Source: a virus. From it: 20,549 bases of DNA. The number at the start of each line of letters is the position of its first letter. The stretch's first letter is position 1. The translations under genes were made by a program, and so were the position numbers. Shown piece by piece: positions 3,541 through 15,192 of this stretch. The notes beneath the pieces were generated by a model. It searched no databases. It was not told the origin of the DNA and saw only the letters and a program-made list of their open reading frames with translations. The DNA lies in the IMG/VR virus record IMGVR_UViG_3300028822_000136, positions 1 through 20,549 of that record. One strand, 5' to 3'.

Positions 3541-3874
3541 TTTTATTCCTCAAATCTATTAAATCAGGTAAATTATGTTTGTCGTAAATAATCTCTGCGT
3601 GCCAATGATCTTGTACTGGATATTTACGTATCTTTAATTTTGTAGAATTGCCATATAATTCTCTACATTTATATAACATTCTTCCCCATTGTTCTTTTCC
3701 TACAGACTCAACATGGTCTGTTGATATAACATAATGTTTCTTTTTAAGTTTCACAATAACAAAATCATCAAATTCTTTTATTTTATCATGTTCAGGATAA
3801 TATAATTCAACAGGAACTTTTTCCTTTTCAAAGATATCACAAAACGGACATCCTGATACATGTAATGATTTCAT
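3518..3874 (-). CDS. HIT-like nucleotide-binding protein
   Basis: 118 aa. The N-terminal 'GCPFCDIFEKE' (Cys9, Cys12) is the usual opening of HIT-family proteins, followed by the 'fddFvIVKLKKKHYVISTDHV' strand that in HIT proteins reads 'vlvipkrHv'. Near the C-terminus is 'QDHWHAEII' (His90, His92), corresponding to the H-x-H-x-H catalytic triad with the third His replaced by Glu. HIT proteins hydrolyse or transfer nucleotidyl groups. The broken triad could mean altered chemistry or simple binding. The ATG at 3874 shares one base with the upstream stop. The 46-aa gene starts inside its 3' end. Assignment comes from motif order, not from a search. Confidence 0.6.
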   Translation of the reverse strand: MKSLHVSGCPFCDIFEKEKVPVELYYPEHDKIKEFDDFVIVKLKKKHYVISTDHVESVGKEQWGRMLYKCRELYGNSTKLKIRKYPVQDHWHAEIIYDKHNLPDLIDLRNKNAKSKTK

Positions 3875-6055: not shown

Positions 6056-7432
6056 CTAAATTTTCATAACATATGGATTGCGTTTTTTAGTTTTCACCGA
6101 ATTAATTACCGCATCCCAATCGACATCTCGTTGGTCACCAGATACTTGTATAGCAAATGCTAGACTATCAACACAATCATCGTGTGCTCCTCTTGGAAAC
6201 TTAATTAATTCATCGCATAGATTAACTAAGTCAGGATTAATATTAATCCGATGAGTTTCTAACAATACTGCTAATCTTTGTATTCTTGACCACTTATCAT
6301 TGACCCATGATGACTTTAATGGTTCTATGGGCAATGAAGTATTTTCCATCCATTCATCTGTTATGATACGCTGAGTAGCATTTGATTCTATGCCTATTTT
6401 TTTAGGTGCGTATCTATCGCTTAATGACTTGATTATTTCCAATTGTCTACTCATAGACACCTTATCACGTATATTTTCAACAACATAATATGTTTTATCT
6501 TTGTCTCTTGCTACTACTGTTACAGAAAAATAGTCTCCCTCTTCACTTTTTGATGCTAAATCAACACCAATGTACCTATCGGTTTCGCTAGGTATGTTTC
6601 TTGGATTCCAATTATTCTGAGCAAATTCAACCCAATCTATTTTAATTGGTGAATCCTCAGTTTGAACAATTTCATTTTGGTACTGCATAGCAAATGCAGT
6701 TGCACCAATATGTTCATCTCTCAATTCAATTAAATCATCATATGTAAATCTCTCTGGCCATAAAGATTCTTTAGTATCTTTATTTATAGCTTGATATCTC
6801 AATGTAGTATACATTGACTTTTCAGATAGATAATTATGTAAATCGTCCTCATGCCAGCGAGTAGCAATATTAATAATTTTTCCACCAGGTTCCAACATTT
6901 CTAATAATTCAGTATTATACCAGTCACGAATTTGTTTTCTGCGATTTGCTGTGGCAACGTTTTGCCTATCTTGAACATCATCTAATATAATCATGTCGTA
7001 GTGAGATGATATTTGTGATGATGTAACACCTAACACTTGTAGTGTTGGTTCTTTATGTTGGATTCCACCTTTTGGGTTCTTAACTCTTATTTTATTTCTT
7101 GACCATGTTGGTGATTTTTGTTCACCAAATAGTTCAGTTACTTTTTCTAATTCCAAACAAGACTTAATAAAATTCATCATGTCTTCAGACTTGTTTGCAT
7201 TCATTGATACAATTAATATTCTTATTCTTGGATTACGTAATATATTCCATACTACAAATCCTTCTACAATAGTTGATTTACCATGTCCTCTTGGTGCAAG
7301 AAGACAAAGATGATCACTCTCTTCCATTGCATTAATCCATTCATTATGGAAGTCCTTTACTGTCAGTCCTAAAACATCTTCCATAAATGATTTGCAGCTT
7401 GTCATGTATTTTAGAACTTCGAAATCACTCAT
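6056..7432 (-). CDS. terL: Terminase large subunit (packaging ATPase-nuclease)
   Basis: 458 aa. The ATPase half has Walker A 'APRGHGKST' (46-54), Walker B with catalytic acid 'MIILDDVQD' (147-155) and coupling motif 'INIATRWHEDD' (187-197). The RNase H-like nuclease half has 'RYIGVDLASKSEEGDY' with Asp291, 'KIGIESNATQ' with Glu349 and 'HDDCVDSLAFA' with Asp418/419 and Asp422, so all expected metal ligands are present. It pumps DNA through the portal and cuts the concatemer. The enzyme looks intact. It is followed 16 bp later by the Alba gene. Confidence 0.95.
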   Translation of the reverse strand: MSDFEVLKYMTSCKSFMEDVLGLTVKDFHNEWINAMEESDHLCLLAPRGHGKSTIVEGFVVWNILRNPRIRILIVSMNANKSEDMMNFIKSCLELEKVTELFGEQKSPTWSRNKIRVKNPKGGIQHKEPTLQVLGVTSSQISSHYDMIILDDVQDRQNVATANRRKQIRDWYNTELLEMLEPGGKIINIATRWHEDDLHNYLSEKSMYTTLRYQAINKDTKESLWPERFTYDDLIELRDEHIGATAFAMQYQNEIVQTEDSPIKIDWVEFAQNNWNPRNIPSETDRYIGVDLASKSEEGDYFSVTVVARDKDKTYYVVENIRDKVSMSRQLEIIKSLSDRYAPKKIGIESNATQRIITDEWMENTSLPIEPLKSSWVNDKWSRIQRLAVLLETHRININPDLVNLCDELIKFPRGAHDDCVDSLAFAIQVSGDQRDVDWDAVINSVKTKKRNPYVMKI

Positions 7433-7500
7433 AATATCCTATAAAGAAATAATTAACATTATAACATCTAACCATTCAGATAATTTTTAATTAGTGATAA

Positions 7501-8469: not shown

Positions 8470-8622
8470 TTAATATCACCTTATAATTAATTATATAATA
8501 AATTGATTACCCACCTATTCCCGTCGTACTTGACTCTCCTGATAAATGTATTATTGAATACATAAATGTATATATTTTTGTATTCTCTCAATATATATAG
8601 TCCAAGAGCAAATGTGGTCCTA

Positions 8623-8639
8623 CTATATAAAGCTTTCGG
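8623..8639 (-). promoter_or_regulatory. Archaeal promoter of the head/packaging operon
   Basis: On the minus strand this reads ACCGAAAGCTTTATATAG: a BRE-like ACCGAAAG followed by a TTTATATA box, the same layout as the other promoters here. Transcription should begin near 8600, about 130 nt before the first structural gene's ATG at 8469, giving a leader with an AGGTGAT ribosome site. Confidence 0.7.
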
Positions 8640-8811
8640 TCTAAATGGATATTTGGGTGTGTTACTGCTAAAATTTTTTGAGTTTGAGGCATGGATGGCG
8701 GTTTAGAGTATGAGGGTTAAGTATGGTGTTAGGGGTGGTTAGATAAGGACGTTAGGGGTCTAAAATGGGTTAAAGTTACCTGATATTTTTATCACTAAGC
8801 AAGCTAAAACG

Positions 8812-9836: not shown

Positions 9837-10025
9837 TCTTTATTGATAGTCGGATCGATCCATCTACTTTATTTGATTAGGGGGTCCGCCCAATGATTAC
9901 TTGAATTATCCACCGAAGGGGGTCCGCCCATATCAATTGTTTTGTATTATTATATTGATATTATAATAATAATAAAATAAATAAATAAATAAATAAAATA
10001 AAAAAAGAAAAAAGAAAAAGAAAAA
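9837..10025. other. Non-coding spacer with low-complexity A/T tract
   Basis: Contains two copies of the GC-rich repeat (9880-9892, 9918-9930), then a simple AAAT/AAATA tract and A/G-rich sequence at about 9960-10025. On the minus strand the latter is a long T-rich run directly after the stop at 10026, likely the terminator of that gene. Confidence 0.6.
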
Positions 10026-10319
10026 TTATTTCTTTTTCAATTCTTTTTTCAAATCATTTAATTGTTTTTCCAAAGATGCAATTTTATTATCTTTGGCCTT
10101 TGTGGCCTTCTTTTTCCATGAAACGCCATTCATGGCTTTGGCCACTTTTTCCACCATGTCTTTACTGACACAAACAGAACCACGCCCAGAATGGATATTG
10201 ATGAACAACGAACCATTATTATCCATCGCCTTGATGGTGGTGGTTCGGGTTTTTTCTTTACCGTTTGATGCTTCGTATTTTTCCTTGACACTTATAGTGT
10301 CTAATGTTTCAGATGCCAT
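10026..10319 (-). CDS. Small beta-domain protein with coiled-coil tail (paralogue A)
   Basis: 97 aa. An N-terminal domain (about 1-70) includes 'KTRTTTIKAMDNNGSLFINIHSGRG' and 'VSKDMVEKVAKAMNGVSWKK'. The C-terminal 20 residues form a lysine-rich coiled coil (IASLEKQLNDLKKELKKK). It is about half identical to the product at 11097-11381. The order strand-turn-strand then helix is reminiscent of PC4-type single-strand DNA-binding domains, but I would not assign it. It has its own promoter, starts within about 10 nt of the predicted transcription start, and is followed by a T-rich run. Two GC-rich repeats lie downstream and one just upstream of its promoter. Confidence 0.75.
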   Translation of the reverse strand: MASETLDTISVKEKYEASNGKEKTRTTTIKAMDNNGSLFINIHSGRGSVCVSKDMVEKVAKAMNGVSWKKKATKAKDNKIASLEKQLNDLKKELKKK

Positions 10320-10348
10320 ATTGCTCCAATATAGTAATAGTCATATGG

Positions 10349-10366
10349 GTATATAAGTCTTTCGGT
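10349..10366 (-). promoter_or_regulatory. Promoter of paralogue A
   Basis: Minus strand reads ACCGAAAGACTTATATAC, followed by CCATA shared with the other promoters of this region. Predicted start lies within about 10 nt of the ATG at 10319. A GC-rich repeat (10372-10384) begins 5 bp upstream of the BRE and can pair with the inverted copy at 10402-10410. Confidence 0.75.
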
Positions 10367-10487
10367 GATCTGGGGGTCCGCCCAATTCATCTATTATTTA
10401 AGCGGACCCCGAATGGTGTTTTTACATAAATACAAAAATATACAAAAAAATATAAAATATAAAAAAATAAAATAAAAAAAATAAAAA

Positions 10488-10688
10488 TTAAATATTGGCC
10501 TCGGCTATATAATATATTTCAATTATTTCATAACCTTCTTCTTCCAATTTCATTATATTCTTTTCTTCTGTGCATACTTTACCAATACCTGACATTTTAC
10601 AAGAATACCAATCTTGTTTTCTTTTACTTGGTATTATATCAATCAACGGTATTTCTTGGCCTTCTTCATCGTATTTATCATATGTCAT
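10488..10688 (-). CDS. 66-aa acidic protein of unknown function
   Basis: Product begins MTYDKYDEEGQEIPLIDI and contains 'WYSCKMSGIGKVCTEEK' with two cysteines, ending in a hydrophobic 'YEIIEIYYIAEANI'. No family recognised. Evidence for a real gene is its own promoter (10714-10733) placed so that the ATG is almost at the transcription start, the same plan as its two neighbours, and the long T-rich tract on the minus strand after the stop. Strongly acidic, so unlikely to bind DNA directly. Confidence 0.65.
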   Translation of the reverse strand: MTYDKYDEEGQEIPLIDIIPSKRKQDWYSCKMSGIGKVCTEEKNIMKLEEEGYEIIEIYYIAEANI

Positions 10689-10713
10689 ATTATCATTAGT
10701 ATATATGTATTAT

Positions 10714-10733
10714 GGATATATAAAGGTTTTGGT
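10714..10733 (-). promoter_or_regulatory. Promoter of the 66-aa gene
   Basis: Minus strand reads GACCAAAACCTTTATATATC; the BRE is GACCAAAA instead of ACCGAAAG. TTTATATA is centred about 30 bp upstream of the ATG at 10688. A GC-rich repeat begins 7 bp upstream of the BRE (10740). Confidence 0.7.
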
Positions 10734-10789
10734 CTGAACGGGGTCCGCCTAGGCCTTGGCCTCGTCAAGGGGTCCGCCTAGAATCTTAT

Positions 10790-10825
10790 AGAAAGAAAGA
10801 AAAAAGAGTGATTGTTGTATCACTC
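10790..10825 (-). terminator. Hairpin plus T-run terminator of the 29-aa unit
   Basis: On the minus strand GAGTGAT (starting at 10825) pairs with ATCACTC after a 6-nt loop and is followed by TTTTTTCTTTCTTTC. The TGA stop codon of the 29-aa frame is part of the stem. Confidence 0.7.
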
Positions 10826-10909
10826 ATATTTATATGGTTGCCAACCAAATATTTTATGTTGTTGGCTTTCATCGATGGTTGATAAATCAACCCTTGTTGC
10901 CTTAGTCAT
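10820..10909 (-). CDS. Possible 29-aa mini-protein
   Basis: Reads MTKATRVDLSTIDESQ and ends GWQPYKYE. It is tiny, but the reading frame exactly fills the space between a near-leaderless promoter (10930-10950) and a terminator hairpin whose stem contains its stop codon. This is the same promoter-gene-terminator plan as the neighbouring units. It may be a peptide, or a short regulatory RNA that happens to be open. No family recognised. Confidence 0.45.
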   Translation of the reverse strand: MTKATRVDLSTIDESQQHKIFGWQPYKYE

Positions 10910-10929
10910 ACAATATAGTAATGGGCTTA

Positions 10930-10950
10930 TGGGTATATAAAGTTTTCGGT
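10930..10950 (-). promoter_or_regulatory. Promoter of the 29-aa unit
   Basis: Minus strand reads ACCGAAAACTTTATATACCC followed by ATAAG. The BRE matches the promoter at 8901. The ATG at 10909 is about 27 bp from the box centre. A GC-rich repeat (10963-10975) lies upstream. Confidence 0.75.
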
Positions 10951-11096
10951 TGATGGTATTTAGGGGGTCCGCCTAGGATTTACTGGTTTTTGTTATATGT
11001 GGGTCCGCCTAAAATACATAAAAAAATCACACAAAAAAATAAAATGGGGTCCGCCTAATAAATAAAAACTAAAAAAATAAAGAAGGGGAAATCCCC

Positions 11097-11381
11097 TTAC
11101 TTTTTTAATTGTTTTTTCAGGTCGGCTAACTGTTTTTCCAGGTCGGCTATCTTACTATCCTTCTTAGCCGTTTTTTTCCAGGATAGACCAGTTAAAGCCT
11201 TGCCTACCTTACTTGCCTTGTCCTTAGGCAAGTTTACACTGCCACGACCACAGTGAATATTAATGAACTCACTGCCATCGTTAACCATACTGCGAACAGT
11301 TATGGTTCTTGTTTTCTTGGCACCAGCCTTATTCTCGTAGGTATCCTTGATTGATACCTTGTCAATCACTTCCGACGTCAT
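11097..11381 (-). CDS. Small beta-domain protein with coiled-coil tail (paralogue B)
   Basis: 94 aa, beginning MTSEVIDKVSIKDTYE, about half identical to paralogue A over its whole length. Shared blocks include KTRT, 'GS.FINIH.GRGSV', 'GxSWKK' and the closing 'KIA.LEKQL.DLKK.LKK' coiled coil. Conservation is strongest in the FINIH-GRGSV core, the likely functional surface. The gene is noticeably richer in G+C than its neighbours and than its paralogue, hinting at separate acquisition or stronger selection. Its promoter puts the ATG at the transcription start. GC-rich repeats lie on both sides. Function unknown; nucleic-acid binding is a guess from size, basic tail and copy number. Confidence 0.78.
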   Translation of the reverse strand: MTSEVIDKVSIKDTYENKAGAKKTRTITVRSMVNDGSEFINIHCGRGSVNLPKDKASKVGKALTGLSWKKTAKKDSKIADLEKQLADLKKQLKK

Positions 11382-11400
11382 ACTACCTGTATGGTCTTAT

Positions 11401-11420
11401 GGGTTTATATAGTTTGTGGT
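11401..11420 (-). promoter_or_regulatory. Promoter of paralogue B
   Basis: Minus strand reads ACCACAAACTATATAAACCC and then ATAAGACC, matching the others in TATA position and in the CCCATA that follows. The box is centred about 26 bp upstream of the ATG at 11381, so the mRNA is expected to be leaderless. A GC-rich repeat begins 8 bp upstream (11429). Confidence 0.7.
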
Positions 11421-11621
11421 CGTTTTTAGGGGGTCCGCCTATTCTTATTCATATTCCATATATTTGAGCGGACCCTCATCTTTTTATCGGTGGAATTTGA
11501 GGGGTCCGCCTAACTTGGGGGTCCGCCCAGCAATGGGGGGTCCGCCTAATCATCAATTCATATCAAATGTGTTATAACAAATATGTTAATGACATCCTTA
11601 AAACCAGATAAAAGATACCAA

Positions 11622-11657
11622 ATCTGATATAAAATTCATCCCATATCTGATATAAAA
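11622..11657 (+). repeat. Iteron-like direct repeats
   Basis: ATCTGATATAAAA occurs exactly at 11622-11634 and 11645-11657, 23 bp apart. Looser relatives flank it (AGATAAAAGATAC at about 11607, GGATATAAC at about 11671). Confidence 0.5.
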
Positions 11658-11817
11658 CACCTATACATACGGATATAACTATATATCTATTACTATGGAC
11701 GGAACTAAAAGGATTCTAATACTATGCAGAGGAGAGATTTAGGCACTATGATAGTATATAGTATATTAATCTATTAATAGGTGCAAACTAAAAGGCGATA
11801 AATCTATGTGAAGTAGG

Positions 11818-12012
11818 ATAGGTGGTAGAAATATAATATTAATAGTAGTGGTAGTAGTAATAGTGATAGGAATAATAATAGTAGTAGTGACTAATTTTAA
11901 TATATATACTACTTAATACTTTCCACCTATTTTACTACTAATACTATTAATACTTTTACTACTAATATTACTACTACTACTAATACTAATACTACTAATG
12001 ATAATAATACTA
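11818..12012. repeat. Long imperfect inverted repeat of TAG/CTA triplets
   Basis: The left arm (about 11818-11890) is rich in TAGTAG, AATAGT and AATAAT on the plus strand. The right arm (about 11924-12012) is rich in CTACTA, ACTATT and ATTACT. The outer ends match exactly: ATAGGTGG at 11818-11825 against CCACCTAT at 11924-11931. The centre is an A/T run of about 35 bp. The arms can slip in register, so the region could extrude as a cruciform or give several stem-loops. Confidence 0.65.
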
Positions 12013-12129
12013 TTAATTCACCCCAATTCTATCTACCTGCTAAATTTTTACTATACCAACTTCAATTTTACACTATACCTATGACATTTTTAGTATATAC
12101 TATGACTATTTATTGAAACTCATAGCCAG

Positions 12130-12167
12130 AATTATTAATCTAATGGTAAATTATTAATCTAATGGTA
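12130..12167 (+). repeat. Perfect tandem 19-bp repeat
   Basis: AATTATTAATCTAATGGTA is present twice head to tail (12130-12148 and 12149-12167). The sequence that follows, about 'GGTATAGCATAGGGTGTTTA', is similar to 'GGTAGAGTATAGGGTAGTTA' near 13953, on the other side of the operon. Confidence 0.75.
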
Positions 12168-12232
12168 TAGCATAGGGTGTTTATAATATCGTAACACTAT
12201 GTCTAATATATAGGAATAAATTATACAATCTG

Positions 12233-12246
12233 TCCTATATATAGGA
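12233..12246. promoter_or_regulatory. Palindromic operator-like site
   Basis: TCCTATATATAGGA is a perfect 14-bp palindrome 70 bp upstream of the operon promoter. A half-match, ATATATAGGAAT, is at about 12206-12217. It could be a regulator site for the 12356-13813 operon. Confidence 0.4.
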
Positions 12247-12316
12247 ATTAGATATAGTACTATCAATATGCCCTGTTACTACAAATACTATACTAATCCT
12301 AATCCTATGAATAGAC

Positions 12317-12334
12317 ACCGAAAAGTATTTAAAC
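12317..12334 (+). promoter_or_regulatory. Promoter of the 12356-13813 operon
   Basis: ACCGAAAAG (12317-12325) is followed by TATTTAAA (12326-12333), about 26 bp upstream of the ATG at 12356, so the first gene is probably translated from a leaderless message. Confidence 0.7.
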
Positions 12335-12355
12335 CCCCTTCAAGTTGTATGGGTG

Positions 12356-14539: not shown

Positions 14540-14679
14540 GTAGGTAATATCTACCTATGTGAGTGTTAGGCACTACTCACCAGCATGGTTGTGGTAAAAC
14601 ACAATAACGATAGGATAATATATCTTAGATTTTTTAGGCTACACTATTAGTAGTCCTTTATTATCCTATCTCTCAACTT
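14540..14679 (+). ncRNA. Structured non-coding RNA candidate (hairpin series)
   Basis: Four successive stems with no open frame. TAGGTA (14541-14546) pairs with TACCTA (14552-14557). GTGAGT (14559-14564) pairs with ACTCAC (14575-14580). TTGTG pairs with CACAA around 14589-14604. GATAGGATAATA (14609-14620) pairs with TATTATCCTATC (14659-14670) over 12 bp and encloses a smaller bulged hairpin, AGGCTAC (14636-14642) against GTAG-T-CCT (14650-14657). The series runs straight into the tRNA-like element, so the two may form one transcript of about 240 nt from the TATA box at 14511. I recognise neither RNase P RNA nor 7S RNA motifs in it. Confidence 0.55.
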
Positions 14680-14780
14680 GTGGGGTTATATATATCTATT
14701 CTTACATAGACAATAGATATATGTGGTATATAGTTAGATTTGATGGCTATCTATAATAGGTTCGATTCCTATACCCTGCA
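14680..14780 (+). ncRNA. tRNA-like element with atypical core
   Basis: GTGGGGT (14680-14686) pairs in all seven positions (two of them G-U) with ACCCTGC (14773-14779), followed by a single A and no encoded CCA. The T arm is perfect: ATAGG-TTCGATT-CCTAT (14756-14772), with the canonical GGTTCGATTCC. Between them, 69 nt replace the usual 47-50. There is an 8-12 bp A/T hairpin (TATCTATT 14693-14700 against AATAGATA 14712-14719), then a 7-bp hairpin, ATAGTTA (14730-14736) against TGGCTAT (14744-14750), with a 7-nt loop, then a 5-nt variable-like spacer. No standard D arm or U33-containing anticodon loop can be drawn. An intron-bearing tRNA, a tRNA pseudogene, a tRNA mimic, or an attachment site derived from a host tRNA are the options. 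Confidence 0.5.
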
Positions 14781-14782
14781 CT

Positions 14783-15022
14783 ATGAAATTATTATATAAT
14801 ATTAGATGTAAGTATTATATGCTACATAATTATATTAGTGATATAAAAAAATATAGCATCTATTGGTATAAAACAGGAAGGAACTATAACTATCCAATAT
14901 GTTGTATATTATTTTTTATATTTACGCCTATTTGTATAAATAAAAAATATAACAATCCTATGAAGTATACAGGATATTTAATGTGTCCTATATGTAGGAA
15001 AAAATACTATAATAAAAGGTGA
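14783..15022 (+). CDS. Small Tyr/Lys-rich protein with membrane-like segment and CPxC
   Basis: 79 aa, beginning MKLLYNIRCKYYMLHNY, rich in Tyr, Ile and Lys, with a hydrophobic stretch 'YPICCILFFIFTPICI' (about 38-53) and ending 'GYLMCPICRKKYYNKR'. The final CPIC could be half of a zinc ribbon. It begins 2 bp after the tRNA-like element and lacks a clear ribosome site, so the start may be elsewhere or the frame may be fortuitous. The next gene's AGGTGAT site overlaps its stop, supporting an operon. Confidence 0.45.
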   Translation: MKLLYNIRCKYYMLHNYISDIKKYSIYWYKTGRNYNYPICCILFFIFTPICINKKYNNPMKYTGYLMCPICRKKYYNKR

Positions 15023-15030
15023 TTAAAAAT

Positions 15031-15192
15031 ATGGGAACAGAAATATATGAAGAACATAATATGTATATAAAGCGATTCTGGGGTGGAGAAGATAAAGGCA
15101 CATCATTTATATTCTATATGGATGAAGTAGAAATGACACAAAAAGAATTGCTTAAGTTCATAGGAACATTATTAGAATATGTAATGTTATAA
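15031..15192 (+). CDS. 53-aa protein of unknown function
   Basis: Product begins MGTEIYEEHNMYIKRFW, continues 'GTSFIFYMDEVEMTQKELLKFIG' and ends LLEYVML. AGGTGAT sits 8 bp before the ATG, the best ribosome site in this neighbourhood. It appears to be a small beta-beta-alpha protein. No family recognised. A small hairpin, GTTAC/GTAAC, follows at about 15201. Confidence 0.6.
   Translation: MGTEIYEEHNMYIKRFWGGEDKGTSFIFYMDEVEMTQKELLKFIGTLLEYVML

Follow-up and report, generated by a model that had tools for sequence, protein, structure and literature searches.

The window analysed here, which is the entire 20,549-base virus record IMGVR_UViG_3300028822_000136, contains a block of small single-gene units with copies of a short GC-rich element in their intergenic spaces. 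These elements are putative sites of one regulator, probably viral, which is likely to govern the small monocistronic, early-type genes of the block as a virus-specific regulon. Because the operator sequence differs between related viruses while the layout and the genes persist, the comparison suggests a virus-encoded regulator that alters its recognition. A regulon with one shared operator was one of the two readings offered in the original prediction, and it is well supported by the uniform orientation of the promoter-proximal copy and its 20-bp distance to the TATA box in five relatives.

Genomic context

The left arm of the window encodes terminase, portal and HK97-type capsid proteins, and the right arm is divergent from it. 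The block is bordered on one side by the left arm and on the other by an 800-base AT-rich gap, where the cumulative GC skew reaches its minimum; this gap is a possible replication origin. GC content is about 30–39% in the block and 18–39% across the window. The gap also holds a long imperfect inverted repeat of TAG/TAC-type triplets (11834–12017, 53-nt arms, 77% complementary), itself a possible origin. The 283-aa protein that adjoins the gap gave a low-confidence structure model (pLDDT 53).

BRE/TATA promoters and near-leaderless starts point to an archaeal host, and archaeal character is indicated further by a relative, G003, whose genes include those for DNA polymerase B, a nuclease with an ERCC4-type domain and an ATPase resembling Rad51. 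A search of genome contigs with a terminase profile did not find the host, with one remote bacterial contig among the matches listed. Against named phages, the terminase gave remote matches only (<30% identity among the matches listed), and neither the 283-aa protein nor the block proteins described below as family A gave any match.

Two further observations concern regions outside the block. Positions 14647–14785, directly before a 79-aa ORF starting at 14783, are 91% identical to one related locus (L020, 561–698), which is above most genes; no gene of at least 40 aa was called there, and the stretch may be an RNA or a missed gene. In each of the loci L018, L019 and L020 two places match the major capsid protein of the window, giving two capsid paralogues.

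Single-gene units and the element in the window

The block contains four genes of 97, 66, 29 and 94 aa, all on the minus strand. The features are listed below; the element copies come from a motif scan, and those on the minus strand are in the functional orientation.

9882–9892, minus: element, orphan copy past the last gene; no TATA octamer at the expected distance
9920–9930, minus: element, orphan copy past the last gene; no obvious promoter
10026–10319, minus: family A gene, 97 aa; predicted to have four strands, a helix and a coiled helix at the C-terminus
10350–10357, minus: TATA octamer CTTATATA (97-aa gene); core 24 bp upstream
10374–10384, minus: element, promoter-proximal copy of the 97-aa gene
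10399–10409, plus: element, inverted distal copy, one mismatch
10488–10688, minus: 66-aa gene; 88% amino acid and 87% nucleotide identity to the L020 unit
10717–10724, minus: TATA octamer TTTATATA (66-aa gene); core 24 bp upstream
10741–10751, minus: element, promoter-proximal copy of the 66-aa gene; also from alignment with L020
10770–10780, minus: element, distal copy of the 66-aa gene; also from alignment with L020
10790–10825, minus: hairpin and T-run terminator of the 29-aa unit (z −4.6)
10820–10909, minus: small ORF, 29 aa, tentative gene
10934–10941, minus: TATA octamer TTTATATA (29-aa unit); core 31 bp upstream
10965–10975, minus: element, promoter-proximal copy of the 29-aa unit
11001–11011, minus: element, distal copy
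11047–11057, minus: element, distal copy directly after the T-rich end of the 94-aa gene
11097–11381, minus: family A gene, 94 aa; the 97-aa gene is its paralogue
11406–11413, minus: TATA octamer ACTATATA (94-aa gene); core 25 bp upstream
11431–11441, minus: element, promoter-proximal copy of the 94-aa gene
11465–11475, plus: element, inverted distal copy, one mismatch
11502–11512, minus: element, distal copy, first cluster
11519–11529, minus: element, distal copy, first cluster
11538–11548, minus: element, distal copy, first cluster
11549–12352, no strand: AT-rich stretch without a called gene between the divergent arms; cumulative GC skew minimum

The sequence GGGTCCGCCYA occurs 14 times at up to one mismatch between 9882 and 11548 and nowhere else in the window at that threshold, where dinucleotide shuffles gave a mean of 0.02 copies and at most 1. 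Twelve copies are exact and lie on the plus strand as written; read on the minus (coding) strand the element is TRGGCGGACCCC, with the core GCGGAC. The two inverted copies each deviate from the core at one base (GCTTA, GCTCA). All 14 fall outside the four genes. The count, the two orientations and the restriction to intergenic spaces of this block are thus as originally predicted, the inverted pair being inexact.

Each gene has a BRE/TATA promoter, with its start codon 32–38 nt from the 5′ end of the TATA octamer, so that the genes described earlier as leaderless are near-leaderless. T-rich sequence follows every gene; the 29-aa unit has a clear hairpin with a T-run, and the hairpin downstream of the 94-aa gene was no better than shuffles (z −0.9). 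Among the block genes scanned there were no useful Pfam, PHROGs or PADLOC matches, including anti-CRISPR and Aca proteins, which often lack homologues. Rfam gave no match.

Related viruses keep the layout with other cores

A terminase search yielded 19 related loci. The motif of the window was absent from the relatives (12 whole records checked), and the same layout with other cores was found in five relatives: L020, L021, L022 and L061, whose contigs extend into the block, and L086. L061 was located by its element pattern and L086, a contig end with three copies, by a profile of the small-terminase region. The block of L020 has 19 forward GCGTAA cores, that of L022 has 12 forward GAGGAA and that of L061 has 21 forward GCGGAA, from which the window core differs at one base; L086 also has GCGGAA. 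The element type is uniform or nearly so in the window and these three complete or nearly complete blocks, and mixed in the few copies of L086 and in L021, where GAGGAA, GCGTAA and GCGGAA occur together (the GAGGAA count of 6 in L021 includes two in, or at the start of, coding sequence). The relatives have a longer element: at most copies TTAATAT lies about 25 bp upstream of the core, followed by an AT-rich part and the core. The window element is without this TTAATAT half.

The arrays spread over every intergenic gap across 1.7 to 5.3 kb, with orphan copies past the last gene, and the ratio of forward to inverted copies is 12:2 in the window, 19:3 in L020, 12:0 in L022 and 21:4 in L061. The number and kind of single-gene units vary among the relatives, and the common genes mostly keep their order. 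Related viruses with the same genes and no repeats, which were to speak against the original prediction, did not appear: gene, positions and layout are kept with a different repeat sequence, and a more distant relative without the array (L028) is also without the block genes. L021, L022 and L061 come from one metagenome (3300028920) yet have different cores, which mildly disfavours a single host factor.

Several other candidates were set aside. When IMG/VR was scanned for contigs with GGGTCCGCCYA twice at short distance, only GC-richer contigs were returned, several with short tandem repeats, and a scan for GGCGGACCCC followed by TTATATA returned no contig with an array. Many TGACGGC copies lie near start codons in a more distant relative (L027, 130–450 and 1150–1390). 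They were not taken as the same system, since two promoters that were read have them downstream of TATA and others form a cluster apart; they may belong to another operator system. Two further features were seen in the L061 array region. At 8549–8698 (minus) the product of one unit, which has its element and promoter, seems to be a GC-rich, structured RNA of some 100–150 nt in place of a protein (z −3.6); neither Rfam nor the related loci compared gave a match to it. At 6858–7436 (locus plus strand) there is a 192-aa ORF on the opposite strand that resembles the HNH-type proteins flanking the arrays.

Position of the element relative to TATA

Across L020, L021, L022 and L061, 22 of 22 promoters have a distance of exactly 20 bp from the start of the core to the TATA octamer, and the single promoter read in L086 makes this 23 of 23 across five relatives. 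The 14-bp spacers are constant in length and keep a BRE-like part while varying elsewhere (mean pairwise identity 49%, compared with 30% for shuffled spacers). The proximal copy is always forward, and inversions occur only among distal copies (two in the window, three in L020). Distances between copies are more variable, with clusters at 35–39 and 46–49 bp. Their helical phasing (near 37 and 47–48 bp; p about 0.0001–0.0006 against jittered values) is a hint only, from a loose test in which one cluster dominates.

A constant distance to TATA and a site upstream of BRE are what is expected of an archaeal activator touching TBP or TFB, and the fixed spacing favours activation as the mode of control. 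Three observations count against the regulon and against activation. The window element is without the TTAATAT half of its relatives. In the window the nearest copy lies 24, 24, 31 and 25 bp upstream of the TATA octamer (97-, 66-, 29- and 94-aa genes), so that the spacing is not constant and the TATA rule is broken; and the orphan copies at 9882 and 9920 lie past the last gene with no TATA octamer at a fitting distance, where there is no gene for an activator to serve.

Change of the element in place

The 66-aa gene offers a direct comparison between the window and L020. It is more alike in the two viruses (88% of residues and 87% of bases identical, codon identity 0.80) than the terminase gene (75.5%, 75% and 0.57), and its similarity extends through the promoter to and across both upstream elements. 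In the alignment these elements stand at matching positions with a common CGAGGCC in between, and L020 has GCGTAA at both of them, the window GCGGAC. The same unit is therefore present in both viruses, with both copies of its own genome's type. Recent exchange is not special to the block, since a 57-aa gene outside it (15019–15192) is as closely shared with L020 (codon identity 0.87, above the terminase gene).

Common descent of the elements in the window and in its relatives is suggested by their position and orientation, the shared GCGGA and this one orthologous unit. In L061 one unit with a Zn-ribbon gene (core at 3597, reversed locus) has GAGGAA among GCGGAA units; this unit and the mixture in L021 look as if the change were incomplete, or as if a unit had arrived with its own element.

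A candidate regulator

One gene family, here called family A, is the sole gene common to all five complete or nearly complete blocks, with two copies each in the window (94 and 97 aa), L020 and L061 and one each in L022 and L021. It is always the first unit beside the AT-rich gap, behind the densest cluster of elements. Because it is the first unit in every block and the densest site cluster stands at this first promoter, family A is the most likely candidate for the regulator. The paralogues of one virus cluster together, without strong support. The predicted model (pLDDT 86) combines four strands with a helix and, at the C-terminus, a coiled helix. Its matches to PDB folds are weak, the most sensible being the nucleic-acid-binding folds of PUR-alpha and Whirly (E 0.2–1.3). 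With a best plausible E of about 0.2, this modelled fold counts against the assignment, as does the lack of a known DNA-binding domain among the block genes scanned, save sub-threshold Zn-ribbon matches in one L022 unit. Behind family A genes a 20-codon ORF (MQYA...TW..IK.WI) was seen in three places, at L022:5850–5912 and after each family A gene of L061; it is perhaps a conserved tiny protein.

Proposed mechanism and its alternatives

In the mechanism we propose, a DNA-binding protein, probably virus-encoded, would occupy the elements, and the single-gene units would be early genes. The regulator would act mainly as an activator, contacting TBP/TFB from about position −50, with the upstream copies binding further regulator molecules. 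Its recognition sequence would have shifted in small steps (GAGGAA, GCGGAA, GCGTAA, GCGGAC), each change affecting most of a genome's sites at once. The placement, orientation and spacing of the elements and their co-occurrence with family A are all explained by a regulon with a shared upstream operator.

The alternative with the largest share of probability after the regulon, though still unlikely, resembles stoperator repression: a viral repressor on all copies would shut the early promoters and block read-through, with each virus having its own immunity type. The copies do lie mostly one way relative to transcription, in short intergenic gaps and also past the last gene, and they differ among relatives as in the cluster A mycobacteriophages (PMC6550527); the orphan copies and this analogy would favour repression with road-blocking over activation. 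However, an exact 20-bp spacing in 23 promoters exceeds what a road-block needs, the sites lie upstream of BRE and not over it, and they are confined to one block and not spread genome-wide. Among the proteins scanned, which are part of the ORFs of a record that may be a fragment, neither an integrase nor a repressor was recognised.

Far less probable is that the elements are recombination sites of a cassette system, with units gained, lost and moved by exchange between repeats. This was the other reading of the original prediction, and its indirect support remains: the number and content of units vary, n units are bordered by n+1 clusters, family A is duplicated in tandem in L061, which also has its one GAGGAA unit, and the window and L020 are closer in the 66-aa gene than in the terminase gene. 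Against shuffling, no breakpoints were found at elements, gene order is mostly kept, a gene outside the block is equally closely shared, and at the one orthologous unit compared the similarity crosses both elements, which themselves changed while the neighbouring gene stayed. Nor does recombination need strict promoter spacing. Replication iterons, repeated initiator sites by the origin, have marginally the smallest chance of all; the block adjoins the gap with its skew minimum and divergent arms and has its densest cluster there, but copies in every intergenic gap over 1.7 to 5.3 kb, at a set place relative to promoters, do not fit such sites.

Beyond the regulon itself, it is possible, but in our judgement rather doubtful, that the operator was re-keyed wholesale from one close relative to the next, in step with a regulator encoded by the virus (family A). 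Each virus would then have a control or superinfection type of its own, as an independently evolved archaeal counterpart of phage immunity specificity. The six related contigs make testable the general question of how recognition can change jointly in a regulator and its many sites. The block also presents small genes without assigned function that are probably early and possibly anti-defence, and similar blocks could be recognised in new viruses from their layout (an element, then 20 bp, TATA and a near-leaderless gene) and not by protein similarity.

Comparison with known systems

The many short asymmetric sites, mostly in one orientation relative to transcription and shifting gradually between relatives, resemble the stoperators of cluster A mycobacteriophages (PMC6550527, PMC9283540). 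Those have a bacterial host and bacterial promoters, a known repressor and sites genome-wide, and a fixed promoter distance does not define them, whereas all copies here lie in a 1.7-kb block.

The nearest archaeal precedent is the early-gene regulatory sequences that were used to find anti-defence genes. In SIRV2 and other archaeal viruses, virus-specific regulatory sequences surround the core promoters of early single genes; the sequence outside the core promoter varies by virus, and the authors infer different regulators (PMC11065993). As in that system, small single genes without assigned function stand in a row in the window's virus, and several share a regulatory sequence at a strong BRE/TATA promoter. 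Instead of surrounding the core promoter, the sequence here is a separate element that stands 20–31 bp before TATA; it occurs in one to five copies, some of them inverted and some orphaned, and the virus is tailed and of another lineage. No protein like Aca8 of that system was recognised here. The repeats of halovirus HF2 are a second precedent: in this tailed archaeal virus, too, repeated intergenic sequences act with gene promoters (PMC8707807). The HF2 repeat carries the TATA box and start site and is well conserved among relatives (PMC8707807), whereas the element here is separate from the promoter, 24–31 bp upstream in the window with several promoterless copies, and changes between relatives. 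We therefore file the system of the window as a variant, a member of neither the early-gene regulatory sequence system nor the HF2 repeats.
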